This document shows positions 17,358 to 47,424 of a stretch of 48,347 nt of DNA, in pieces (position 1 is the stretch's first letter; every line of letters starts with the position of its first letter). The DNA comes from a virus: the IMG/VR virus record IMGVR_UViG_3300045918_000340, positions 1-48,347 of that record; one strand, 5' to 3'. Under the pieces are notes generated by a model. The model ran no database searches. It was not told the origin of the DNA and saw only the letters and a program-made list of their open reading frames with translations. The position numbers were made by a program, and so were the translations under genes.

Positions 17358-18476
17358 ATGAAGGTCTATCTGGTTGGCGGCGCCGTCCGCGACATGCTGT
17401 TGAACCGTACGCCCAAGGATCGCGACTACGTGGTCGTTGGCGCTACCGAGCAGGAGCTGCTCGACGACGGGTTCGAGCGCGTTGGCAAGGACTTCCCAGT
17501 CTTTCTGCACCCCGTCACGAAGGACGAGTGGGCGCTGGCACGAACCGAGCGCAAGGTCGGGCGTGGCTACGGTGGCTTCGAGGTCGAGACGGATGACGTC
17601 ACGATCGAGCAGGACTTGGAGCGCCGTGATCTGACGATCAACTCCATCGCCTACGACGCTGAAGAAGATCTGTACGTCGACCCACATGGCGGTGTCTACG
17701 ATCTGCAACGCCACATGCTGCGCCACACGTCCGATGCCTTTCGCGAGGACCCGCTGCGCGTCGTTCGACTGGCTCGCTTCTACGCGCGCTACGCTCAACA
17801 CGGCTTCACGGTCGCCGCTGGAACGATGACGCTGGCCGCCGAAGTGGTTGACAGCGGCGAGCTGGACGAGCTGCCGGATGAACGCTTCTGGGCCGAGCTG
17901 GAGAAGGTCTTCACCGACGATGGTCAGCCAGCCAAGTTCTTCGAGCTGCTGTACGAGGTTGGCGCGCTGAACGACGTTCGCTTCTTCCGTGAGCTGTTCG
18001 GTCCGAACGTCACGTCGCACTCGCTGGATCGCATCATGAGAATGGCGCGGTCAGTCTTCAACGTGATTGAACCAGCTGCTCGCGTCGACTTCTTCGCAGC
18101 TGGGACGATGCCGTTGGGTGTGCTGCCGATGACGTTCTCGACCACGCGGTGCATGAAGCTGTACGCTGCGCAGCGCGACATTCGCCTGATCCACACGCAG
18201 AACCCGGCGACGCTGGTCGAGTTTCTGACGCGCATCAGCGCTTGGAACTCGCGCACCACCGCCGACGATCTGGTCGCACTGTTGGACGTCGTCGAGGACG
18301 CCGGCTACAACTCGCTGTACCCGTTCGAGTCGACGGAGCTGGCCGAGATCATTCAAGCTGGCCGGAGCGTCGTGTCTGGGCCGTTCCAACACCTGGTTGG
18401 CAGGGCAATCGGTCAGGCCATGATGTCCGAACGGATCGTTCGCGTCAACGACGCGCTGAACCGTATCAGCTCTTGA
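17358..18476 (+). CDS. cca: CCA-adding tRNA nucleotidyltransferase
   Basis: 372 residues. The class II nucleotidyltransferase head is complete: VGGAVRD (7-12), the metal pair DRD (D21, D23), ARTERK, and the template motif LERRDLTINSIAYD followed by DPHGGVYDL. The helical body carries the EDPLRVVRLARFYAR block. It adds or repairs the 3' CCA end of tRNA. At least two tRNAs in this window lack an encoded CCA, giving it substrates made by the phage itself; it may also repair ends damaged by host nucleases. Expression is from the operator-type promoter. The length is near that of short bacterial enzymes without an HD domain. Confidence 0.95.
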   Translation: MKVYLVGGAVRDMLLNRTPKDRDYVVVGATEQELLDDGFERVGKDFPVFLHPVTKDEWALARTERKVGRGYGGFEVETDDVTIEQDLERRDLTINSIAYDAEEDLYVDPHGGVYDLQRHMLRHTSDAFREDPLRVVRLARFYARYAQHGFTVAAGTMTLAAEVVDSGELDELPDERFWAELEKVFTDDGQPAKFFELLYEVGALNDVRFFRELFGPNVTSHSLDRIMRMARSVFNVIEPAARVDFFAAGTMPLGVLPMTFSTTRCMKLYAAQRDIRLIHTQNPATLVEFLTRISAWNSRTTADDLVALLDVVEDAGYNSLYPFESTELAEIIQAGRSVVSGPFQHLVGRAIGQAMMSERIVRVNDALNRISS

Positions 18477-32910: not shown

Positions 32911-33966
32911 ATGTCCAAGCTCCTCACTCGTGAAGCCTTTCGTGAAGGCGTCTTCGCCCGCGACGGCCACAAGTGCGTGGTCTGCGGCAAGACCGCTGAG
33001 CAAACCCCTGAGGGCAAGCTCGACGCGCATCACATCATCGAACGTCGGCTCTGGTCCGACGGCGGCTACTACCTCGACAACGGAGCAACGGTCTGTGAAG
33101 AACATCACCTGGAGTGCGAGCGAACTATCCGCAGCGTCGAAGAAGTTCGAGCTCAATGTGGTATTACCACGATTGTCGTCCCCGACCAATTTTACCCCGA
33201 GCAGCCAATCACCAAGTGGGGCGACTATGTCCTCGATAACGGCTACCGCACAAAGGGTGAGCTGTTCTTTGACGTCAGCGTACAGAAGGTCCTGCGGGAC
33301 GCCGGAGTCCTAGACCTCTACGTTCCGTACGTCAAGTACGGTCGGACGTTCCATCTGCCGTTCTCGCCTGGGATGCACGACGATGACAAGGCGCTGAAGG
33401 ACTGCGAGCAGTTCGAAGGCAAGGACGTCGTCATCTCCATCAAGTTCGACGGTGAGAACACCTCGGGCTACAGCGATGGCCACGTTCACGCTCGCTCCAT
33501 CGACAGCCGTGGTGGCGAGGAGCGCGCCTGGGTCAAGCGATTCCTGGCCGAGAACGTGTGCTACAACCTACCCGAAGGGTGGCGCGTCTGTGGCGAGAAC
33601 GTTTGGGCCGAGCACAGCATCAAGTACACCGACCTGCCCTCCTACTTCCTCGGCTTCAGCATCTGGAACGAGAAGAACGAATGTCTGTCGTGGGACGACA
33701 CGCTCGAGTGGTTCGAGCTGCTGGACATCACGCCGGTCAAGGTTCTCTACCGTGGTCCGTTCAACGGCGACGTGCTGAAGTACGCGACCGAGTTCGTTGC
33801 TCCACTGTGGGAGACCACTGAGGGCTACGTCGTTCGCGTTGCCGATAGCTTCAAGTACGGCGACTTCAAGAAGAGCGTTGCGAAGTACGTTCGCAAGGGC
33901 CACGTTCAAACCCAGAAGCACTGGCGTGCCGGTGCTCACTTCAAACCAAACGGACTCGCAAAGTGA
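32911..33966 (+). CDS. HNH endonuclease-RNA ligase fusion
   Basis: 351 residues with two domains. Residues 15-70 are an HNH zinc nuclease: C22-VVC25, then DAHHIIERR (H40/H41), N57 in LDNG, and CEEHH (C62, H65/H66). Residues about 95-350 are a nucleotidyltransferase of the RNA ligase family: motif I ISIKFDGEN with Lys178 as the adenylated lysine, a motif IV-like EGYVVRV, and motif V KSVAKYVRKGH. RNA ligases reseal broken tRNA during phage infection. A nuclease fused to a ligase could cut and rejoin, or the HNH part may only hold RNA ends. The HNH residues look intact. Confidence 0.88.
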   Translation: MSKLLTREAFREGVFARDGHKCVVCGKTAEQTPEGKLDAHHIIERRLWSDGGYYLDNGATVCEEHHLECERTIRSVEEVRAQCGITTIVVPDQFYPEQPITKWGDYVLDNGYRTKGELFFDVSVQKVLRDAGVLDLYVPYVKYGRTFHLPFSPGMHDDDKALKDCEQFEGKDVVISIKFDGENTSGYSDGHVHARSIDSRGGEERAWVKRFLAENVCYNLPEGWRVCGENVWAEHSIKYTDLPSYFLGFSIWNEKNECLSWDDTLEWFELLDITPVKVLYRGPFNGDVLKYATEFVAPLWETTEGYVVRVADSFKYGDFKKSVAKYVRKGHVQTQKHWRAGAHFKPNGLAK

Positions 33967-38709: not shown

Positions 38710-38922
38710 ATGAACAAACTAGCTCAACTTGGCAAAGCCCTGCTTGCCGAAAGTGGAAAACCCTACAACGCCTTCAACGGGTTTCTGGGTCCGTTCCGCG
38801 TCGACCACGCCTACGTCAATGACGCCCGTGGCAACACCGTCGTCAACTGTGAGGGCAATCAGGCGACCGCCAAGGTCATCTGCGCTCTGCTCAACAAGAC
38901 CTACCCGCCGAAGGCAAAGTGA
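38710..38922 (+). CDS. small late protein with LLAE N-terminus
   Basis: 70 residues. N-terminus MNKLAQLGKALLAESGKP contains LAE-S, an LxE-type site. The rest is a small alpha/beta unit with NTVVNCEGNQATAKVIC. Overlaps the Nudix gene by GTGA. Not recognised. Confidence 0.68.
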   Translation: MNKLAQLGKALLAESGKPYNAFNGFLGPFRVDHAYVNDARGNTVVNCEGNQATAKVICALLNKTYPPKAK

Positions 38923-39383
38923 AGGTCGCTGAGCTGTTCGAAGCCGTTGGCAAGGCTGGCAAAGCCGGCTTCATGCCGTACGTGCTCGAGGGCGACGTGC
39001 CGATCTATCTGTTCATGGTCTCCTCAGCGTCGCAGTACGGTGGCGCTGACCCACAGATCTCGAAGGGCCACATCGACGCCGGTGAGGACGCCAAGACCGC
39101 CGGAGTTCGTGAGGCAGAGGAGGAGCTCGGACTGCGCAAGTCTAACCTCATCTCCACCATCGAGGGTTGGAGCGGCACGCAGACCGGGCTCGACGCAACC
39201 TACAAGATGACCATCTTCGCCGGTCAAGTGAAGTCCAAGTCTGCCTTCGACAAGCCGCACTACGAGACGAAGGAGACCGTTTGGCTCTCCGCCGCGGACT
39301 TCGCCACGAAGGGTCGCAAGGCGCAGAACTCCATCGTCGCAGCCGTTGACAAGTCAGTTCGAGCTTCGTTACAATCAACCTAG
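38919..39383 (+). CDS. Nudix hydrolase with MKVAELFE N-terminus
   Basis: 154 residues from GTG 38919. The Nudix box is complete (G50HIDAGE...REAEEELGL72), so it should hydrolyse a nucleoside diphosphate linked to another group. The first residues MKVAELFEAV match the LxE-type N-termini of neighbouring late proteins, which suggests the enzyme may be packaged in the head or simply shares a leader module. Substrate unknown. Confidence 0.9.
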   Translation: MKVAELFEAVGKAGKAGFMPYVLEGDVPIYLFMVSSASQYGGADPQISKGHIDAGEDAKTAGVREAEEELGLRKSNLISTIEGWSGTQTGLDATYKMTIFAGQVKSKSAFDKPHYETKETVWLSAADFATKGRKAQNSIVAAVDKSVRASLQST

Positions 39384-39792: not shown

Positions 39793-40093
39793 GCAGCAAG
39801 CCTTCACCAAACTCCAAGACCTGGGACCTTAGCGCAAGCAAGGTCCCAGGTTCGTCTTAGAAAGAACCTCGCGTCAGGATTCGCGAGCAACAAATAACGC
39901 CAGACCGCTGTGATACTAGCCGGAGAACCTACGTGAGGCTAGAGGAGTGCGAGATAGGATGAATATGGCTTGATCCGGACTTCGGTCCGGATCTATTTCA
40001 AACACGCTGACCGAATCGCAATCGAAGGTTATCCTTTCACGATCTCCCCTTCAACCGCACTTAACTTGTCGGCATGTTTGAAATAGATTCAAT
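39793..40093 (+). ncRNA. structured non-coding region before the tRNA array
   Basis: No gene is seen in 301 bases. Several strong hairpins follow each other: 39820-39850 (11-bp stem CCTGGGACCTT/AAGGTCCCAGG), 39867-39890 (CTCGCG/CGCGAG), about 39918-39950 (CTAGCC/GGCTAG), and 39972-39993 (GATCCGGAC-TTCG-GTCCGGATC). A long-range stem joins 39992-40005 to 40075-40088. It could hold stable RNAs cut from the tRNA transcript, as with RNA C and D of T4, or terminators. Confidence 0.6.
39992..40088 (+). ncRNA. candidate structured RNA, copy A
   Basis: Outer stem ATCTATTTCAAACA/TGTTTGAAATAGAT (14 bp) continues after one mismatch as GCTGAC/GTCGGC. An inner hairpin GAAGG/CCTTC encloses TTATCCTTTCACGATCTC. 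Copy B at 41807-41870 shares GTTATCCT-T-A-GAT-CCCC within a different closing stem. Confidence 0.55.
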
Positions 40094-40170
40094 TGGTCGT
40101 TAGCTCAATCAGGCAGAGCACTCGCCTCCAAAGCGATAGGTTGTGGGTTCGATTCCTACACGGCCAGCCA
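40094..40170 (+). tRNA. tRNA-Trp (anticodon CCA)
   Basis: Acceptor TGGTCGT/ACGGCCA, discriminator G, encoded CCA. Loop ctCCAaa. First gene of the array; a second tRNA-Trp is at 47467. Confidence 0.9.
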
Positions 40171-40179
40171 AATTTGAAT

Positions 40180-40254
40180 GCCTTCATAGCTCAGTGGTAG
40201 AGCACCGTCTTGATAAGGCGTAGGTCCTTGGTTCGATCCCAAGTGAAGGCACCA
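40180..40254 (+). tRNA. tRNA-Ile (anticodon GAT)
   Basis: Acceptor GCCTTCA/TGAAGGC, discriminator A, encoded CCA. Loop ttGATaa. Confidence 0.92.
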
Positions 40255-40265
40255 AGTTATTCAAT

Positions 40266-40340
40266 GCCGAGTTGGACTTTTGGTGAGGTCCTCTGCCCTT
40301 CAAGCAGAAGAGACGGGTTCGATTCCCGTACTCGGTACCA
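40266..40340 (+). tRNA. tRNA-Glu (anticodon TTC), copy 1
   Basis: Acceptor GCCGAGT/ACTCGGT, discriminator A, encoded CCA. Loop ccTTCaa has C rather than U at position 33. Identical to the gene at 41959-42033 except for the first base. Confidence 0.9.
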
Positions 40341-40350
40341 ACAATTCTGT

Positions 40351-40422
40351 TGGGGTCTGGTGTTCTGGTGAACACAGTCGGCTTTGACCCGACCGAGGTG
40401 GGTTCGATCCCCACGTCCCCTG
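40351..40422 (+). tRNA. tRNA-Gln (anticodon TTG) without encoded CCA
   Basis: Anticodon arm GTCGG-ctTTGac-CCGAC and T-arm GTGGG/CCCAC are clear. The acceptor TGGGGTC pairs imperfectly with GTCCCCT and the 3' end reads T-G-C-A, so CCA must be added by Cca. Confidence 0.85.
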
Positions 40423-40428
40423 CATCCC

Positions 40429-40477
40429 GCATCGCAGTTCAGCACACATCTTTTTGTGTTACAATGAACTGCGATGC
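40429..40477 (+). promoter_or_regulatory. 13-bp hairpin enclosing the start of a homing endonuclease gene
   Basis: GCATCGCAGTTCA (40429-40441) pairs perfectly with TGAACTGCGATGC (40465-40477), with an inner ACACA/TGTGT stem. The start codon at 40474 lies in the right arm. Read-through RNA from the tRNAs would hide the start. Confidence 0.75.
40460..40465 (+). promoter_or_regulatory. -10 box TACAAT inside the hairpin loop
   Basis: The TGTGTTACAAT context gives a transcript beginning near 40472, lacking the left arm of the hairpin and nearly leaderless. Confidence 0.5.
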
Positions 40478-41109
40478 AAAAGCCACCTAAGACTTACCAC
40501 TACCTTTATCGAACAACCTGTCTTGTGACAGGCAAGTTCTATGTTGGTATGCACTCAACAGACGACCTCAACGACGGTTATCTTGGGAGCGGAAAGATTT
40601 TAGGTCGCTCTCGCAAAAAGCATGGTGACGAAAAACATGTGAAAGAAATTCTTGAACACTGTGCCTCTCGTGAAGCGCTGAAACTTCGTGAGAAGGAAAT
40701 AGTCTCAGCAGAGATGCTCGCCAACCCGTTGAACATCAATTTGAAGATTGGCGGCGAAGGCGGTTGGGATCATATACCGCAGGAGGTAGTTCTATCGAAC
40801 CTCTCAAAAAGAAATGTTGGTTGGGCGACCTACAACAGATCAGAAAAGGGAAGGCTCAAAGCCTCTGAAAACATTCGCAAGATAAATGTTGTTGGTCGAA
40901 AGTCTTCTTATGGTTTTCGTGGCAAACAACATACCGATGAAACTAAACAAATTCAAAGCCAGCACCATCAAGGTGCTGGCAACTCTCAATACGGAACTTG
41001 TTGGGTAACCAAAGACAACAAGTCATCCAAAATCAAAAAGACTGACCTTGACGAATACCTCGCTAATGGTTTCTCGAAAGGCAGAGTAATTTCTAAAATG
41101 GTGATGTAG
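40474..41109 (+). CDS. GIY-YIG homing endonuclease in the tRNA array
   Basis: 211 residues. GIY-YIG core YHYLYRTTCLVTGKFYVGMHS, conserved Arg in LGRSRKKHG, and the Glu/Gly-rich INLKIGGEGGWDH block. The C-terminal QYGTCWVTK followed by KKTDLDEYLANGFSKGR is a DNA-binding module shared with the second array endonuclease. AT-richer than the surrounding genome. It lies between tRNA-Gln and a distorted tRNA gene and its stop TAG is formed by bases 8-10 of that tRNA. Start codon is held in a hairpin. Confidence 0.92.
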   Translation: MQKPPKTYHYLYRTTCLVTGKFYVGMHSTDDLNDGYLGSGKILGRSRKKHGDEKHVKEILEHCASREALKLREKEIVSAEMLANPLNINLKIGGEGGWDHIPQEVVLSNLSKRNVGWATYNRSEKGRLKASENIRKINVVGRKSSYGFRGKQHTDETKQIQSQHHQGAGNSQYGTCWVTKDNKSSKIKKTDLDEYLANGFSKGRVISKMVM

Positions 41110-41225
41110 TGTAGTGGCAGCACAGAAAACATCGTTCGCGCTTTTTGTTGCGCAAGTAACCGCTTGTGAATGGTTATCTTTATCATCCAAAGCTAGGGTT
41201 GGTTCGAATCCAGCCATCACCACCA
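41100..41225 (+). tRNA. tRNA-like gene with an insertion of about 50 bases
   Basis: Both ends are typical: acceptor GGTGATG/CATCACC, discriminator A, encoded CCA, T-arm GTTGG-TTCGAAT-CCAGC, and a D-arm TAGTGTAGTGGCAGCA identical to that of tRNA-His at 42208. The middle is about 50 bases too long. A possible anticodon arm is TAACCG-cttGTGaa-TGGTTA (His), with an extra hairpin before it (TTCGCGC...GCGCAAG) and a CTTT/AAAG variable-arm stem after it. It could be a pseudogene, an intron-bearing tRNA or a tRNA-like RNA. Confidence 0.6.
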
Positions 41226-41233
41226 AAATCAAT

Positions 41234-41309
41234 TCCGTCTTAGTATTCTCGGCGAGTACCTCCGGCTGTTAACCGGATGAGTCTGGTTCGAATCCAGAAG
41301 ACGGAGCCA
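41234..41309 (+). tRNA. tRNA-Asn (anticodon GTT), copy 1
   Basis: Acceptor TCCGTCT/AGACGGA, discriminator G, CCA encoded. TCCGG-ctGTTaa-CCGGA. Confidence 0.93.
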
Positions 41310-41317
41310 AGATCTGA

Positions 41318-41390
41318 TGGGGAGCGTCAAGGTTTGACCGACTCGGCTCTGACCCGAGTTGCTTAGGTTCGAGTCCTAACTCCCTTGCCA
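41318..41390 (+). tRNA. tRNA-Gln (anticodon CTG)
   Basis: CTCGG-ctCTGac-CCGAG anticodon arm. Acceptor TGGGGAG/CTCCCTT has a U-U first pair, CCA encoded. Confidence 0.9.
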
Positions 41391-41398
41391 AATTCTAT

Positions 41399-41474
41399 GC
41401 GTCGTTATCCGATGTGGTCATGGAAGCTCCCTGAAGAGGAGATAAACCGGGTTCGATTCCTGGACGACGCACCA
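41399..41474 (+). tRNA. tRNA-Phe (anticodon GAA)
   Basis: Acceptor GCGTCGT/ACGACGC, A, CCA. Loop ctGAAga. Confidence 0.92.
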
Positions 41475-41482
41475 ATTATAAT

Positions 41483-41557
41483 ACTCGCTTGGTTCAGTGG
41501 TGGAACGCTTCCTTGACATGGAAGAGGTCGCAGGTCCGATTCCTGCAGCGAGTACCA
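41483..41557 (+). tRNA. tRNA-Val (anticodon GAC)
   Basis: Acceptor ACTCGCT/AGCGAGT, A, CCA. CTTCC-ttGACat-GGAAG. Confidence 0.93.
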
Positions 41558-41565
41558 AATTACAT

Positions 41566-41640
41566 GGGGTGCAAACTTTGACGGTGAAGCTCTGGCTCTT
41601 AACCAGATGGAAGACAGTTCGAATCTGTCGCGCCCCACCA
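41566..41640 (+). tRNA. tRNA-Lys (anticodon CTT), copy 1
   Basis: Acceptor GGGGTGC/GCGCCCC, A, CCA. TCTGG-ctCTTaa-CCAGA. Confidence 0.92.
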
Positions 41641-41648
41641 AACACAAT

Positions 41649-41716
41649 ACCCGGTCCAATGGATTGGCTGCGGTCCTACGAAGGCTGCGTGATCGGTTCG
41701 ACTCCGATACTGGGTT
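41649..41716 (+). tRNA. tRNA-Arg (anticodon ACG), short, no encoded CCA
   Basis: Acceptor ACCCGGT/ACTGGGT, discriminator T followed by CAT instead of CCA. Loop ctACGaa. The D-arm CCAA-TGGA-TTGG has only a four-base loop, making the tRNA about five bases short. The same D-arm occurs in tRNA-Arg(CCG) at 46844. Confidence 0.82.
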
Positions 41717-41725
41717 CATGATAAT

Positions 41726-41800
41726 GGGTTCGTAGCTCAGAGGCAGAGCAGGCGGCTCTTAACCGTCAGGCCGAGATTTCGAAATTCTCCGGACCCACCA
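41726..41800 (+). tRNA. tRNA-Lys (anticodon CTT), copy 2
   Basis: Acceptor GGGTTCG/CGGACCC, A, CCA. GGCGG-ctCTTaa-CCGTC. Differs widely from copy 1, so not a recent duplicate. Confidence 0.88.
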
Positions 41801-41806
41801 AGATAC

Positions 41807-41870
41807 AGACAACCGTACGACTCAGCGTTATCCTGTTAAGATTCCCCGCTTTGTCACTCCTTTGTTGTCT
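41807..41870 (+). ncRNA. candidate structured RNA, copy B
   Basis: AGACAAC (41807-41813) pairs with GTTGTCT (41864-41870). Inner stem AGCG/CGCT encloses TTATCCTGTTAAGATTCC. The loop resembles that of copy A while the closing pairs differ, a covariation pattern. Confidence 0.5.
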
Positions 41871-41874
41871 CAAT

Positions 41875-41950
41875 ATCCCGTTCGTCTAGCGGCCAAGGAC
41901 ACTGCCCCCTCAAGGCGGGAACTCCGGTTCAAATCCGGAACGGGATTCCA
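41875..41950 (+). tRNA. tRNA-Glu (anticodon CTC)
   Basis: Acceptor ATCCCGT/ACGGGAT, T, CCA. Loop ccCTCaa, again C at position 33 as in the other Glu tRNAs. Confidence 0.88.
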
Positions 41951-41958
41951 AATACAAT

Positions 41959-42033
41959 ACCGAGTTGGACTTTTGGTGAGGTCCTCTGCCCTTCAAGCAG
42001 AAGAGACGGGTTCGATTCCCGTACTCGGTACCA
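41959..42033 (+). tRNA. tRNA-Glu (anticodon TTC), copy 2
   Basis: 74 of 75 bases identical to 40266-40340; the first base is A here, which restores the A-U end pair of the acceptor stem. Confidence 0.92.
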
Positions 42034-42040
42034 GCATAAT

Positions 42041-42115
42041 GGATCGGTAGCCTAACGGTCAGGCACCTCTCTGTCTAAGAGGTTCAAGCGGGTTCGACTC
42101 CCGTCCGGTCCGCCA
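42041..42115 (+). tRNA. tRNA-Asp (anticodon GTC)
   Basis: Acceptor GGATCGG/CCGGTCC, G, CCA. CCTCT-ctGTCta-AGAGG. Confidence 0.93.
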
Positions 42116-42121
42116 GCATGT

Positions 42122-42197
42122 AGGCTTTAGAGTGATTGGAAATCCTATCCCTTTCATGAGGGGATGTTGCGAGGTTTGAATCCTCGATAGCCCGCCA
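42122..42197 (+). tRNA. tRNA with anticodon CAT (Met or Ile2), copy 1
   Basis: TCCCT-ttCATga-GGGGA anticodon arm; T-arm CGAGG/CCTCG; discriminator G, CCA encoded. The first acceptor pair is an A-C mismatch. The three G-C pairs typical of initiator tRNA are absent, so elongator Met or Ile2 is likely. Confidence 0.85.
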
Positions 42198-42207
42198 GAT
42201 ATTCAAT

Positions 42208-42281
42208 GGTGGTTCTAGTGTAGTGGCAGCAAGACGGTCTGTGAAACCGTAAGGCAGGGTTCGATTCCCGGTCCCACCCCA
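42208..42281 (+). tRNA. tRNA-His (anticodon GTG), copy 1
   Basis: ACGGT-ctGTGaa-ACCGT. The acceptor GGTGGTT pairs with TCCCACC at five positions; discriminator C, CCA encoded. D-arm shared with the distorted tRNA at 41100. Confidence 0.85.
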
Positions 42282-42290
42282 CCTGATTCA

Positions 42291-42299
42291 GATAAATAG
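42291..42299 (+). promoter_or_regulatory. late box GATAAATAG abutting a start codon
   Basis: Perfect box, but the ATG at 42303 is only 3 bases after it, so a transcript from it would start at or after the ATG. Confidence 0.5.
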
Positions 42300-42302
42300 A
42301 AG

Positions 42303-42947
42303 ATGAACAAACATCATCTAGTTTATCGCACGACGAACCTTCTGAACGGAAGGTATTACATCGGCATCCATTCAACGTCGAACATCGACGATGGGTATCT
42401 TGGTAGCGGTCGTAGGATCAAGGCGGAAATCAAGAAGTACGGTCAAGAGAATTTCAAGCGTGAGATCCTTGAGTCATACCCAACAAGGCAAGAAGTCTTG
42501 AAACGCGAAGCCGAATTGGTCACTGAAGAACTTCGTCAAGATTCGCTCTGTCTGAATCTTAAGAATGGCGGCGAAGGCGGTTGGGAACATCTGAATGACA
42601 ACTCTGAGGTCCAACGCGCAAAAGGACGTAAAGGAAATGCCAGCATCAAGATCTTGGCAAATGATCCTATTTGGGCCGCATCAAGAAGCGCAGCAATCAG
42701 CAATGGTCTTCGCGGAAAGTCTGCTGGGTGGAGTGAACAAGCAACAATGGCTTCGCACACCGATGAAGTAAATCAAAAGCGAAGTCGCACAATGAAAGAC
42801 TTGGCAAGGCAATCAGGCCAAGCAAATTCCCAGTTCGGAACCTGTTGGGTGACCAACGGGTTTCCAATAAAGATCAAGAAACAAGATCTCGATTCGTATC
42901 TGACAAATGGATATGTTCGAGGAAGAACAAAACAATGGTGCACGTAG
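42303..42947 (+). CDS. second GIY-YIG homing endonuclease in the tRNA array
   Basis: 214 residues. Core HHLVYRTTNLLNGRYYIGIHS, catalytic Arg region (GSGRRIKAEIKK), LNLKNGGEGGWEH, and the C-terminal QFGTCWVTN followed by KKQDLDSYLTNGYVRGR. It is a clear paralogue of the endonuclease at 40474. It lies between two tRNA-His genes; its stop TAG is bases 8-10 of the second. AGATGA/TCATCT around the start forms a small hairpin holding the ATG. AT-rich compared with neighbours. Confidence 0.92.
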   Translation: MNKHHLVYRTTNLLNGRYYIGIHSTSNIDDGYLGSGRRIKAEIKKYGQENFKREILESYPTRQEVLKREAELVTEELRQDSLCLNLKNGGEGGWEHLNDNSEVQRAKGRKGNASIKILANDPIWAASRSAAISNGLRGKSAGWSEQATMASHTDEVNQKRSRTMKDLARQSGQANSQFGTCWVTNGFPIKIKKQDLDSYLTNGYVRGRTKQWCT

Positions 42948-43013
42948 ATCAATTGGTAGATCCCGGGATTGTGATTCCCGTCGTTGTGGGTTCGAGTCCC
43001 ATCGTGCACCCCA
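42937..43013 (+). tRNA. tRNA-His (anticodon GTG), copy 2
   Basis: Acceptor GTGCACG/CGTGCAC with the extra G at -1 facing discriminator C, as expected for histidine. CGGGA-ttGTGat-TCCCG, CCA encoded. Confidence 0.94.
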
Positions 43014-43023
43014 GTATTTCAAT

Positions 43024-43097
43024 GCCCTCGTAGCACATTGGTCGTGCGCACCTTTGGTATGGGTGAGAACAGAGTTCGATTCTCTGCTTGGGCACCA
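43024..43097 (+). tRNA. tRNA-Thr (anticodon GGT)
   Basis: CACCT-ttGGTat-GGGTG. Acceptor GCCCTCG/CTTGGGC has two mismatches, A, CCA. Confidence 0.88.
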
Positions 43098-43105
43098 ACT
43101 ATAAC

Positions 43106-43181
43106 GCCCGCGAAGTATTACCTGGTGGTACGCGTCTTTCGTACGGATGAGGACTCAGTTCGAGGCTGAGCGTGGGCTCCA
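43106..43181 (+). tRNA. tRNA-Thr (anticodon CGT)
   Basis: Acceptor GCCCGCG/CGTGGGC, T, CCA. Loop ttCGTac closed by CGTCT/GGATG. Confidence 0.88.
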
Positions 43182-43188
43182 GTACAAT

Positions 43189-43266
43189 TGTGGTCGAGCA
43201 AGCAAGGTGTATGCACCGCACTGTTAATGCGGACAGAGCCGGGTTCGATTCCTGGGACCACAGCCA
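43189..43266 (+). tRNA. tRNA-Asn (anticodon GTT), copy 2
   Basis: Acceptor TGTGGTC/GACCACA, G, CCA. CCGCA-ctGTTaa-TGCGG. Confidence 0.93.
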
Positions 43267-43275
43267 GATCAAAGT

Positions 43276-43350
43276 GTCTCCGTAGTTCAACGGAGAGAAT
43301 AGGACGCTACGAACGTTCAGACGGGGGTTCGATTCCCTCCGGAGGCACCA
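43276..43350 (+). tRNA. tRNA-Arg (anticodon ACG), normal length
   Basis: Acceptor GTCTCCG/CGGAGGC, A, CCA. GGACG-ctACGaa-CGTTC. Same anticodon as the short gene at 41649. Confidence 0.9.
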
Positions 43351-43351
43351 C

Positions 43352-43359
43352 TATAAATA
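43352..43359 (+). promoter_or_regulatory. late promoter TATAAATA
   Basis: Exact T4 late consensus, 28 bases before the gene at 43388. Confidence 0.8.
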
Positions 43360-43387
43360 AGTCATCGCAACTCAACCGGATAAGCGT

Positions 43388-43633
43388 ATGACACTCCTTC
43401 AAGAACTCCTTGACCTGCCAAACAAAGCGCCAAAGGCCTTCAAGGCCGGCGACAAGTTTGACATCACCAACAATGGCCTTCACTTCACCATCGAGGTGGT
43501 CGCCGCCGACAAGGGTCCGTCTGAACTTCAGATCGAGACCGTGCGCGATGGCAAGGCTCGCAAGAGCTACACCGATGCGCTTGAGCTCAGCGCTCGCCTT
43601 CGCGACTGCGAGAAGTTCAAGAAGGTCAAGTAA
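43388..43633 (+). CDS. small late protein within the tRNA array
   Basis: 81 residues. N-terminus MTLLQELLDLP contains LQE-L. The body is a small alpha/beta unit with several Lys residues (AFKAGDKFDITNNGLHFTIE). GC-rich codon use like the phage body, unlike the endonucleases. Perfect late promoter upstream. Not recognised. Confidence 0.75.
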   Translation: MTLLQELLDLPNKAPKAFKAGDKFDITNNGLHFTIEVVAADKGPSELQIETVRDGKARKSYTDALELSARLRDCEKFKKVK

Positions 43634-43641
43634 CAATCAAT

Positions 43642-43716
43642 GGTGCTGAAGCTGAATGGTTAAGCAGCGGTCTCATAAGCCGTGCGTCGTGGGTTCGATT
43701 CCCACCAGCACCACCA
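43642..43716 (+). tRNA. tRNA with anticodon CAT (Met or Ile2), copy 2
   Basis: Acceptor GGTGCTG/CAGCACC, A, CCA. GCGGT-ctCATaa-GCCGT. Confidence 0.92.
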
Positions 43717-43779
43717 ATTACAAGAGGTCGATGCCGGCACCTACGAGGCCGTTGTCGTACGAGTCTAACAACTTGAAAG

Positions 43780-43819
43780 GACGCATCATGCGTACAGTGT
43801 CATCGACGCTTGATGCGTC
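43780..43819 (+). promoter_or_regulatory. 9-bp inverted repeat around a small start codon
   Basis: GACGCATCA (43780-43788) and TGATGCGTC (43811-43819) are perfectly complementary and enclose the start of the 19-codon frame. Confidence 0.5.
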
Positions 43820-43847
43820 TCGAAAACGAACCCCTTTGGGGGCGTAG
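43788..43847 (+). CDS. possible 19-codon peptide
   Basis: MRTVSSTLDASRKRTPLGA behind AAAGGACGCATC, the same leader as the collagen-like gene. The stop TAG is bases 8-10 of tRNA-Lys. Weak evidence; may be a remnant. Confidence 0.3.
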   Translation: MRTVSSTLDASRKRTPLGA

Positions 43848-43911
43848 TTAAGTGGTATAACATGCGGCTTTTACCCGTTCGTCCTGAGTTCGATTCTCAG
43901 TGCCCCTACCA
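43838..43911 (+). tRNA. tRNA-Lys (anticodon TTT)
   Basis: Acceptor GGGGGCG/TGCCCCT, A, CCA. Loop ctTTTac. Confidence 0.9.
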
Positions 43912-44268: not shown

Positions 44269-44505
44269 GATTGATGTAGATCAATTAAACCGCAATGACT
44301 GAAACCTTTTCTAGGTTCGGGTCAGTTTATGTGTTTATTGACTGGTGTTTCTAAAGTGATTCGTGTAAATACATCTGTCCAGTACAGAACATAACAGTCC
44401 CAAAGAGGACTGCAAGAATTGTGGGAACCAACCCATGACGGTAACGGCGACGCACACCGCTAGTCTTTGCTCACGCAATGTGAGCCGAGCATTAAGGAGC
44501 GGTCA
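44269..44505 (+). other. leader of the fibre-gene operon
   Basis: No gene in 237 bases. It holds a hairpin built from ACTGA..AACC/GGTT..TCAGT (about 44298-44325), a late-like box, and a GC-rich stretch before the AAGGAG site of the next gene. Confidence 0.5.
44365..44372 (+). promoter_or_regulatory. late-promoter-like box GTAAATAC
   Basis: 134 bases before the gene at 44506, giving a long leader. Confidence 0.5.
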
Positions 44506-45444
44506 ATGCCAACAGCAACCACAAATGAGACGGTACCTCCGAAGATGATCGACGCAGTCGTCGGTCTTGACGGTCTGCCTCTCAATATTGCGGTGGCCAT
44601 CGAAGCAACCCGCAACGTTGACAACAACAGCGCCACAGCCACAATTCAACAGGCTAGTGTCGCAACCAAAGGGGAAACTACTATGGCAGACATCGTTACC
44701 GGCACCACCACGGGCCAACTCGACACCACCGCGCTCATGCAGGACCACGCCGACATCCGTCGTGAAAATGCACAAAGCGAAGCACAGGTTCGTCGTGACA
44801 TTCAATCAACCAGCGGCGATTCTCGTCGCGAAGCAGCCGAGATCGGCGCCGCAAGCGCCTATCAGAACGCTACTCAACACGCCGGCATCGTCGACCAGGT
44901 GAAGTCTGCTGGTTGGGCCAACTCGGACCGCACCGGCACCGAAGCTGACCGCGTCGTCGGTCAGGGCACCGCCTACTTCATCGCTGAGCAGCAGTACGCT
45001 TTCAACAACGCTACCGCCGTAGCTGCGCTGAAGGCCGGCACTGACATGCAGTTCGCGAACACTCTCAGCGCCATCAATTCCGCAGCCCAAATGGGTCAGG
45101 CAGCGACGGCTCTTGAAGGTGCGAAGTCGGCTGCAGCTGCAGCTCTCGGCCAAGCCCTCATCGGCCAGCAAATCGTTGCTGACGGCAACAACACCCGCGC
45201 GCTCATCAACGAGCTCAAGATGGAGCAGCTCAACCGCGAACTCATCGAGCGCAACGCTGCTCTCGTCGAGGCACGTGGTGACTGCCGCTACTGGCAGGGT
45301 GGCTACAACCAGTCGCAGTTCGCCGCTGTGACCTCCCAGCTTCAGGCCTTTCAGAGCCAGCTCTCTGAGACCCGCCAAGGCATGGTGAACTTCGGTACTC
45401 AATCCGGAGTTGGTCAGACCGCGACCACGAACTCCGTTCGTTAA
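44506..45444 (+). CDS. probable virion fibre-associated protein
   Basis: 312 residues, AAGGAG before ATG 44506. An N-terminal Thr/Val-rich 60 residues is followed by a long Ala/Gln/Asn-rich helical region (AEQQYAFNNATAVAALKAGT, INSAAQMGQAATALEGAKSA) and a Gln-rich C-terminus. A second start at MADIVTG (44683) with AAGG is possible. It precedes the collagen-like gene; together they suggest a surface fibre and its partner. No family is named with confidence. Confidence 0.7.
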   Translation: MPTATTNETVPPKMIDAVVGLDGLPLNIAVAIEATRNVDNNSATATIQQASVATKGETTMADIVTGTTTGQLDTTALMQDHADIRRENAQSEAQVRRDIQSTSGDSRREAAEIGAASAYQNATQHAGIVDQVKSAGWANSDRTGTEADRVVGQGTAYFIAEQQYAFNNATAVAALKAGTDMQFANTLSAINSAAQMGQAATALEGAKSAAAAALGQALIGQQIVADGNNTRALINELKMEQLNRELIERNAALVEARGDCRYWQGGYNQSQFAAVTSQLQAFQSQLSETRQGMVNFGTQSGVGQTATTNSVR

Positions 45445-45452
45445 TTGGATGA

Positions 45453-45472
45453 GGGTGGAGCTAGCTCCACCC
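45453..45472 (+). terminator. 20-base perfect palindrome between fibre genes
   Basis: GGGTGGAGCTAGCTCCACCC can fold as an 8-bp hairpin. No T run follows, so it may cap mRNA or attenuate rather than terminate. Confidence 0.5.
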
Positions 45473-45489
45473 ACCTTCAAGGACGCATC

Positions 45490-46323
45490 ATGGCAGTACT
45501 TGGACCACTAGAGCGCGAGTTGATTGAACTCAACTCTGCGATTTCAAACCTCCGCAGCCGCGCTGAAGGGGTGGTCTTTCACTCACAAACTGGAACGGAC
45601 GCTCAAGTGCAAACAATCATCCCATCAGTCTCTGGCGGTGCCGGCAACGACATCATCAACGTTGAGGTGAATGAATCATGCGTTTGTCCACCTGGTCCTC
45701 CGGGTCCAGAGGGGCCACCAGGCCCGGTTGGTCCGCAGGGTCCGACAGGTCCTCAAGGCCCATTTGGTCCTCAAGGCCCATTTGGTCCTCAAGGCTCGCA
45801 GGGTTCACAAGGCTCTGTTGGTCCAGCCGGACCTCAAGGCGATCCAGGGCCAGTGGGTTCACCAGGACCCGTTGGCCCACAAGGCGATCCAGGCCAGACA
45901 GGCCCGATTGGTCCTCCAGGTCCTATTGGCCCAGTGGGTTCGACAGGTCCTTCGGGGCCTCAAGGTCCGATTGGTCCCGCCGGTCCGCAAGGTCCAATAG
46001 GCCCCGTTGGTCCGCAAGGGCCACCAGGCAAGTGTGAGTGTGACCGAGCCACGCAGCTCATCTCGGCAGACTACGAAGCACAGATCACAGACTTTTATAT
46101 CGGGGTCTCAGCGAAGGGTCCTGTAAAGATCCTCCTACCACAAAAAGCGCCAGATGGCACGTGGCTCATAGTGAAGCTTGAGATGGGAGCGCCGATCGGA
46201 ACACGAAAGGTCACGCTGGATGGGAATGGGGCAACAATCGATGATGCCGCCACTATCACCATGACCAAAGCCTACGAGATCGTTTGGTTGATCAGCCGTG
46301 GCGGGTCCTGGTTCGTGGTGTAA
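45490..46323 (+). CDS. collagen-like fibre protein
   Basis: 277 residues. A head of about 65 residues is followed by roughly 130 residues of uninterrupted Gly-x-y triplets ([19 protein letters not shown] style), bounded by cysteines (CVCPPG and GKCECD). A globular C-terminal domain of about 75 residues ends [12 protein letters not shown]. Collagen triplets form a triple helix, and the cysteines at both ends could lock the trimer. Phage examples are tail or head fibres or decoration. The DNA repeats are expected from the protein. Confidence 0.9.
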
Positions 46324-46914: not shown

Positions 46915-47424
46915 TCACTTGACCGTGTACCCCACGAGGTACTTCGCCGGAACCTTTGCGTTCACGCGCAGCTCTGCGAGCTGATAGAACTGCTGGTCAT
47001 TGCTATCGAACTTGTCGTATTCATCCTTGTTGAGCAGCCGCTTCAGATGAAGTGGGTCGTTGCCACGCAGGTCAGGGTCACGGTGCGCCGTCACCCAAGC
47101 GCGCGGTAGGTCGAACACGAGCGTGATGCGCTCGTTCTCATGAATGGTTTGCGCCTTCGCACCAGCCTTGCGAAACTCTGCCTCACCACCCATTGATGCA
47201 AACGCTCTTGCCGTGTATGGTTCAAGCGCGAAGGAGATCATGCCGGTGCCAGCGTCGAGGCGATCAAGGCCAGTCTTGGCGATCGACTCAAGATGCTTGA
47301 GCTGGGTGCCGTGATAGACGCGCAGCGGATTCTTGTCCTCCCACCAGCCGATGGTTGGATTCTTTTCCCACGGCAGCTTCGGCACCTCTCGTGCTTCGGC
47401 GATGAATTGTTTGAAGGTCAGCAT
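46915..47424 (-). CDS. ADP-ribosyltransferase-like protein with capsid-targeting N-terminus
   Basis: 169 residues. N-terminus MLTFKQFIAEAREVPK closely resembles the T4 capsid-targeting peptide (MKTYQEFIAEA type), with IAE-A as the prohead protease site. The body has RVYHGTQLKHLESIAKTGL (a YHGT loop) and SFALEPYTARAFA, as in the ADP-ribosyltransferase/Tpt1 fold, where His and Tyr hold NAD. A late Glu (QFYQLAELRV) could be catalytic. By analogy with T4 Alt, it may be injected with DNA and modify host RNA polymerase or other proteins. Transcribed from its own minus-facing late box. Confidence 0.8.
   Translation of the reverse strand: MLTFKQFIAEAREVPKLPWEKNPTIGWWEDKNPLRVYHGTQLKHLESIAKTGLDRLDAGTGMISFALEPYTARAFASMGGEAEFRKAGAKAQTIHENERITLVFDLPRAWVTAHRDPDLRGNDPLHLKRLLNKDEYDKFDSNDQQFYQLAELRVNAKVPAKYLVGYTVK

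Follow-up and report, generated by a model that had tools for sequence, protein, structure and literature searches.

Ro60 and the Y RNAs are known in medicine as a pair, and their basic role continues to be debated. Ro60 has been described as a ring that binds Y RNAs on its outer face and single-stranded RNA in its interior (PMC4726728). The layout common to Y RNAs and nematode stem-bulge RNAs has a lower stem with a bulged C, a three-nucleotide bulge opposite and an upper stem, and for both the loop has been described as opening with UUAUC (PMC4726728, PMC4450293). The known structure of the bacterial YrlA RNA (6CU1) is a circularly permuted tRNA (PMC11472068). Putative phage Y RNAs have been cited for mycobacteriophages and proposed for Listeria phage CKA15 (both in PMC12282133), and prokaryotic Y RNAs were stated to be non-homologous with those of vertebrates (PMC4726728). 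Reported here are RNAs from a virus record of IMG/VR, IMGVR_UViG_3300045918_000340, the full 48,347 nucleotides of which are hereafter called the window. Two RNAs associated with its tRNA array, copies A and B, are almost certainly Y RNAs, and a third related RNA between them, hereafter called RNA C and overlooked in a preliminary description of this DNA, reads as a tRNA-Y chimera. The explanation as a whole, phage Y RNAs that would dock on Ro60 together with the chimera RNA C, is considered very probable.

Copies A and B were predicted to share one architecture of outer stem, inner stem and seven-nucleotide loop, as the preliminary description had it (Table 1). The fold of copy A was computed at -34.8 kcal/mol (z -5.45, equalled by none of 200 shuffles) and that of copy B at -13.9 kcal/mol (z -2.15, equalled by three of 200). 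The loop motif that they had been said to share, GTTATCCTNTNANGAT, has just two exact occurrences in the window (40028 and 41827) and, with up to two mismatches allowed, four matches where 0.31 are expected. A covariance model built from 20 sequences, A and B included, matched exactly these two loci in the window at 63.3 and 56.7 bits, the next-best window score being 14.4 bits. The 3' end of copy A is followed after 3 nt by the start of tRNA-Trp (40094), and copy B lies 5 nt downstream of a tRNA-Lys gene and 3 nt upstream of a tRNA-Glu gene. A strong UUCG-capped hairpin (39971-39993) stands immediately 5' of copy A and overlaps its extended stem; it may be a processing site or a terminator.

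Table 1 Predicted RNAs and selected neighbouring genes of the window
Feature	Positions	Strand	Details
Copy A, Y RNA (predicted) with extended lower stem	39989..40090	+	39989-40004 pairs with 40075-40090
Copy A, core	40004-40075		Ro60-type stem 40004-40011/40068-40075; CG 40012-40013; CUU 40065-40067
Copy A, upper part			upper stem 40024-40027/40049-40052; GUUAUC 40028-40033; GAU 40041-40043
Copy A, 7-nt loop	40034-40040		CUUUCAC; anticodon-like, UUC
Copy B, Y RNA (predicted)	41806..41871	+	Ro60-type stem 41806-41813/41864-41871, then CG; UUU 41861-41863
Copy B, upper part			upper stem 41819-41826/41848-41855; GUUAUC 41827-41832; GAU 41840-41842
Copy B, 7-nt loop	41833-41839		CUGUUAA; anticodon-like, GUU
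RNA C, tRNA-Y chimera (predicted)	41100..41225	+	acceptor 41100-41106/41215-41221; D arm 41109-41123; T arm 41198-41214
RNA C, Y part, stems			upper Y stem about 41131-41140/41165-41174; Ro60-type stem 41147-41151/41156-41160
RNA C, Y part, motifs			GCAA cap 41152-41155; CG 41161-41162; GGUUAUC 41172-41178
tRNA array harbouring the RNAs	40094..43911	+	
tRNA nucleotidyltransferase (CCA-adding type)	17358..18476	+	
RNA ligase	32911..33966	+	66% identity over 348 aa to a protein of record G019
NUDIX protein	38919..39383	+	homologues between tRNA array and Ro60 gene in records G030 and G011

The same fold, with strongly covarying stems, recurs in dozens of phage records besides this one. When IMG/VR was searched with the loop common to A and B, 20 stretches were returned, 19 of which carry both stems and the signature, and relaxing the middle of the loop raised this to 43, part of them chance matches. 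The resulting set of 30 members (28 virus loci plus copies A and B) follows a frame that runs, in its 5' half, through lower stem, CG, spacer, upper stem, GUUAUC, seven nucleotides and GAU, and in its 3' half through a short spacer with CC, upper stem, spacer, (C/U)UU and lower stem. For covariation, the 20 members of equal linker length were aligned with MAFFT, so that ten rows stand outside the model. In this alignment 88.7% of the cells assigned to stems are paired, against 63% after shuffling and 28-42% with partners slid; 113 cells are changed on both sides yet still paired (39 shuffled, 20-40 slid), and such changes fall in 16 of the 19 pairs. The three-base-pair tip is invariant because it belonged to the search pattern. 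Relatives keep the pairing in both stems, and the divergence of the stems between A and B is rightly taken as covariation. A covariance model designated R1 found the RNA in all 31 RNA-bearing virus records, as it must by construction, and added further copies for a total of 62 matches at E <=0.1; among 17 of the 38 control records, which carry the motif only, one gave a match (E 0.097, the motif itself).

A gene for a TROVE/Ro60 protein was found in 23 of the 31 RNA-bearing records and in none of the 38 motif-only records (Fisher p 7e-12); the 31 include four pairs with identical RNA, near-duplicates also occur among the controls, and with the four duplicate pairs removed the count is 21 of 27 (p 5e-12). 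In 15 of the 23 positive records, TROVE and the nearest RNA share a strand and are no more than 1 kb apart. The TROVE protein of record G030 aligns over its full length with Deinococcus Rsr (PDB 2nvo, E 1.4e-98) and frog Ro60 (1yvp, E 2.9e-95), and by this similarity it is a true Ro60. G030 is also related to the window, with which it shares a protein (66% identical to the product of 46915-47424), as does record G011 (68% to the product of 44467-45444); the RNA of G030 is the same as that of G019, a record in which Ro60 is likewise encoded. When a phage collection was searched with the G030 protein, 343 records with a Ro60 homologue were obtained, mostly actinobacterial phages, the records falling under ten host genera in all. 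Model R1 placed a candidate Y RNA in four of seven named Ro60 phages: Phosso (9e-8), A3Wally (4e-4), Streptomyces phage Blueeyedbeauty (1.3e-3) and Mycobacterium phage Sparky (2.4e-3), the candidate lying upstream of the Ro60 gene by about 2,200 bases in Blueeyedbeauty and about 170 in Sparky. A scan of bacterial genomes gave 95 stretches, 80 of which were searched with R1. Three reached E <1e-3 (L192, L217, L215), and the two strong loci, L192 in a Planctomycetota metagenome-assembled genome and L217 in Ca. Brocadia, are directly upstream of a TROVE gene; TROVE is absent from the genome of L215 and from those of two weak R1 matches. In phage locus L147 (record G024, 94900-95950), about seven tandem Y RNAs with differing heads stand directly 5' of the TROVE gene.

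The family follows the layout given above for Y RNAs. The bulged-C lower stem, with CCG facing (C/U)UU(G), is found in copies A and B and in nearly all 30 members, and GUUAUC is found in A, B and RNA C, this being the motif with which the relatives were collected. The UG-CA motif of the upper stem (PMC4450293) is absent from the window copies, which have GAAG/CTTC (A) and GACTCAGC/GCTTTGTC (B). Among Rfam models, nematode stem-bulge RNA (RF01656) matched 10 of the 31 records, none of 17 controls and none of 14 named control genomes; the best match, at 39.0 bits, is the sole one above the 38-bit gathering cut-off. The vertebrate Y_RNA model (RF00019) matched one of 27 records (E 3.5e-6, under its cut-off) and none of 16 controls. 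YrlA (RF02553) matched the sister RNAs L147:241-368 and L007:2100-2185 with E 4e-7 and 1.5e-6, both under the gathering score. The RNA above the RF01656 cut-off, L262:1501-1639 in record G016, also matches the YrlA model.

Compared with these known groups, the family resembles stem-bulge and vertebrate Y RNAs in its bulged-C lower stem, upper stem, UUAUC on the 5' side of the loop and C-rich 3' side, and sister phage RNAs match the models of both; the window copies differ in staying below every threshold, those of RF00019 and RF01656 included, in lacking UG-CA, in their shorter loop and in being phage-borne. With YrlA the family shares a Ro60-type stem and a tRNA-like head. A permuted tRNA-like head whose ends meet the Ro stem is present in the two sister RNAs that match the YrlA model, whereas copies A and B have only a small anticodon-like hairpin with a 7-nt loop, RNA C has a tRNA body in another permutation, and GUUAUC does not appear in the YrlA consensus printed by Rfam. 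Putative phage Y RNAs are similar in pairing a phage-encoded Y RNA with a Ro60 homologue; an anticodon-like head and a tRNA-Y chimera are not described in the available part of PMC12282133. The possible new structured RNA of the preliminary description is real, with covarying stems, and only in part a new family, being one variant among the Ro60-binding Y RNAs already known.

RNA C is, by its predicted pairing, a tRNA body whose anticodon arm is replaced by the capped, inside-out lower stem of a Y RNA. Acceptor, D and T arms are followed by a discriminator A and an encoded CCA, and the anticodon-arm position is taken by the upper Y stem, UUU-GUUGC-GCAA-GUAAC-CG and then GGUUAUC; the RNA was not called by ARAGORN at default settings. 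Its termini are the tRNA's own and YrlA is a circularly permuted tRNA, so RNA C would be the reciprocal permutation, with the Ro stem capped. A finder in which acceptor, D arm, T arm and Ro hairpin are all required returned, with GTTATC, 10 matches in 0.68 Mb of Y RNA/Ro60 loci against one in 1.32 Mb of other sequence, L303 among the ten looking false and the outside match, L306, resembling tandem ordinary Y RNAs; without GTTATC, raw counts were another seven against one. A chimera model, R2, matched at E <=1e-6 in 22 of the 31 records (seven of which supplied training rows), none of 17 controls and three of the seven named Ro60 phages. Matches to R2 were not in themselves taken as chimeras, because the model also picks up ordinary Y RNAs in tandem as well as plain T arms; among 29 R2 loci inspected, ten had all seven acceptor pairs, one near-duplicate pair included. 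Finder and R2 loci together give at least 15 chimeras with a 7/7 acceptor stem (the window, L005, L012, L013, L024, four in L033, L075, two in L192, L217, G015 and G028). The four in L033 (1663-2274) are consecutive. In the Ro stem of the chimeras, 46 cells changed on both sides (two helices counted) against 15 shuffled, and the whole Ro stem appeared in the best predicted fold of seven of 12 chimeras folded. L192 and L217 carry Y RNAs and chimeras near TROVE, so the chimera is not limited to phages. A literature search, with subscription papers including the Wolin reviews outside its scope, found no earlier description of a tRNA-Y chimera, which looks new as an RNA type.

The tRNA parts in these RNAs raise the question of whether they are decayed tRNA genes or spacer hairpins that only aid tRNA processing. 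Such an origin would suit the 13 of 30 members that lie within 20 nt of a tRNA gene and the acceptor, D and T arms of RNA C; the remaining 17 are not beside tRNAs and many adjoin TROVE, the stems covary around a fixed loop motif, and acceptor stems complete in at least 15 chimeras do not look like decay, which makes this explanation extremely unlikely. Equally remote is the proposal of the preliminary description that A and B are equivalents of the stable RNAs C and D of phage T4, with no relation to Ro60. T4 does offer a parallel, its tRNA cluster also containing small stable RNAs other than tRNA together with a gene for a GIY-YIG endonuclease. However, the covariance model, run with filters off, had no match over annotated rnaC or rnaD and nothing above 13.1 bits in the T4 tRNA region, the two RNAs have different predicted folds, and the ten host genera under which the 343 Ro60-homologue records fall do not include Escherichia; the equivalence was rejected. 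The best R2 match in T4 was 3.3e-4. T4 rnaC (L279:1409-1547) ends, by eye, in a T-arm-like GGGTTCGAATCCC hairpin, so a tRNA part would be present there too.

The heads of the family are usually tipped by 7-nt anticodon-like loops (UUC and GUU in the window), which look new for Y RNAs. In a loop-blind test, consisting of two scans with the loop left free and the frame scored separately from it, 19 of 23 distinct framed RNAs followed the anticodon-loop rule Y-U-NNN-R, against one of 38 unframed matches. The first middle base is always U or G in the loops that fit. Sister copies in the same genomes have a T arm or a permuted tRNA in the head position.

Several observations weigh against the explanation as a whole. 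Searches of Rfam with the window copies, run up to E 10, returned only chance hits and no match to a Y RNA model. The loops CATTTAA, CAATTAA, CTTTTTA and CTGCTTT break the anticodon rule, and loop sequences are kin to one another and hence non-independent trials of it. The Ro-stem fold of the window chimera, at -32.6 kcal/mol, competes with a rival fold at -32.8, and in L005, L012, L075 and one L033 chimera the competing structure is favoured by 0.9 to 4.7 kcal/mol. What can be read from sequence is the fold with its covariation, the co-occurrence with Ro60, the range of heads and the existence of the chimeras; that the window RNAs are transcribed, processed and bound by Ro60, and what their heads do, is presumed. 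Lastly, the window record, a 48-kb fragment, has no TROVE match, so that a Ro60 of the window phage itself is assumed from its relatives. Together with the eight of 31 records that lack TROVE, this would fit orphan Y RNAs that keep the shape and no longer work with Ro60 in this phage, or that use a Ro60 of the host. All eight negative records are shorter than 70 kb, and TROVE is present in 13 of 13 RNA-bearing records of at least 70 kb (controls of that size, 0 of 4). In G030 and G011 the R1 RNA is flush within the tRNA array and TROVE lies about 10 kb and 14 kb downstream, respectively; the window ends (48347) 6.5-8.3 kb past its copies, so a Ro60 gene at the same distance would lie beyond it. 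The Ro-stem signature is also intact, and orphan Y RNAs are considered improbable.

A possible mechanism is suggested by Salmonella, in which one operon encodes both Y RNAs and RNA repair enzymes and is induced by tRNAs cut in the anticodon loop, and for which it was suggested that the tRNA-like Y RNA head could compete with an anticodon nuclease (PMC7790460). The tRNA array, RNA ligase, CCA enzyme and tRNA-like Ro60 ligands of the phage would fit this idea of competition. Copies A and B, flush between tRNA genes, would have their ends freed by tRNA processing and would dock on a phage-encoded Ro60 ring by the lower stem (CCG on the bulge side, (C/U)UUG opposite), presenting the variable head, a hairpin with an anticodon-like loop (Y32 U33 NNN A37). 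In RNA C the same Ro60 handle would stand on a tRNA body where the anticodon arm should be. Phage Ro60 loaded with tRNA mimics might gate the entry of anything else into the ring, and the mimics might tether, inhibit or divert enzymes that act on tRNA, such as tRNA nucleases and repair or decay enzymes, while phage tRNAs, RNA ligase and CCA enzyme would sustain translation. Such a role as tether or decoy is plausible, if somewhat short of probable.

The principal alternative to a decoy role is that the head tethers a host nuclease such as PNPase for RNA decay, its likeness to an anticodon arm reflecting a common U-turn loop. This is the known mechanism of a bacterial Y RNA, in the Rsr/Y RNA/PNPase machine of Deinococcus (PMC7790460, PMC12282133), and it could accommodate the loops that break the anticodon rule. 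On the other hand, Y32, U33 and R37 are kept in the loops and positions 34-36 vary, and the heads of sister RNAs are other parts of tRNA (T arm, permuted tRNA, whole tRNA body); nuclease tethering is rated possible, on the unlikely side. Similarly tentative is a broader reading, in which large phages would carry a modular Ro60-docked system of tRNA mimics that protects or repairs the phage's tRNA pool, for instance by acting as decoys for anticodon nucleases of the host. Its modules would be anticodon-loop Y RNAs, Y RNAs with permuted-tRNA heads and tRNA bodies with a Ro60-handle arm, and, as part of the same reading, the GUUAUC...CCCC head would link bacterial and phage Y RNAs with metazoan ones.

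Other features of the locus were also recorded. Between two tRNA-Lys genes, 41648-41715 folds as a cloverleaf with an ACG-like anticodon and was not called by ARAGORN at default settings. The array contains two related open reading frames (40474-41109 and 42303-42947), the second of which matches GIY-YIG/SegE endonuclease models, and their homologues are present in many other Y RNA arrays. A collagen-like open reading frame with Gly-Pro-Gln repeats (45445-46323) lies downstream of the array. No named close relative of the window phage was found by DNA (20 kb), by a search for related loci or by one window protein; a second window protein matched 218 records, all below 60% identity, with T4-like phages at about 50% among the matches listed.

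The presence in phages and bacteria of hallmarks of animal Y RNAs, namely UUAUC and matches to the Rfam stem-bulge and Y RNA models, questions the statement of non-homology in PMC4726728. The chimeras suggest a route to tRNA mimicry of the YrlA type by circular permutation. Many variants of phage Y RNA, beside tRNA genes and with heads made of tRNA parts, would make it possible to infer the role of the head from natural variation and to test it in laboratory phages.

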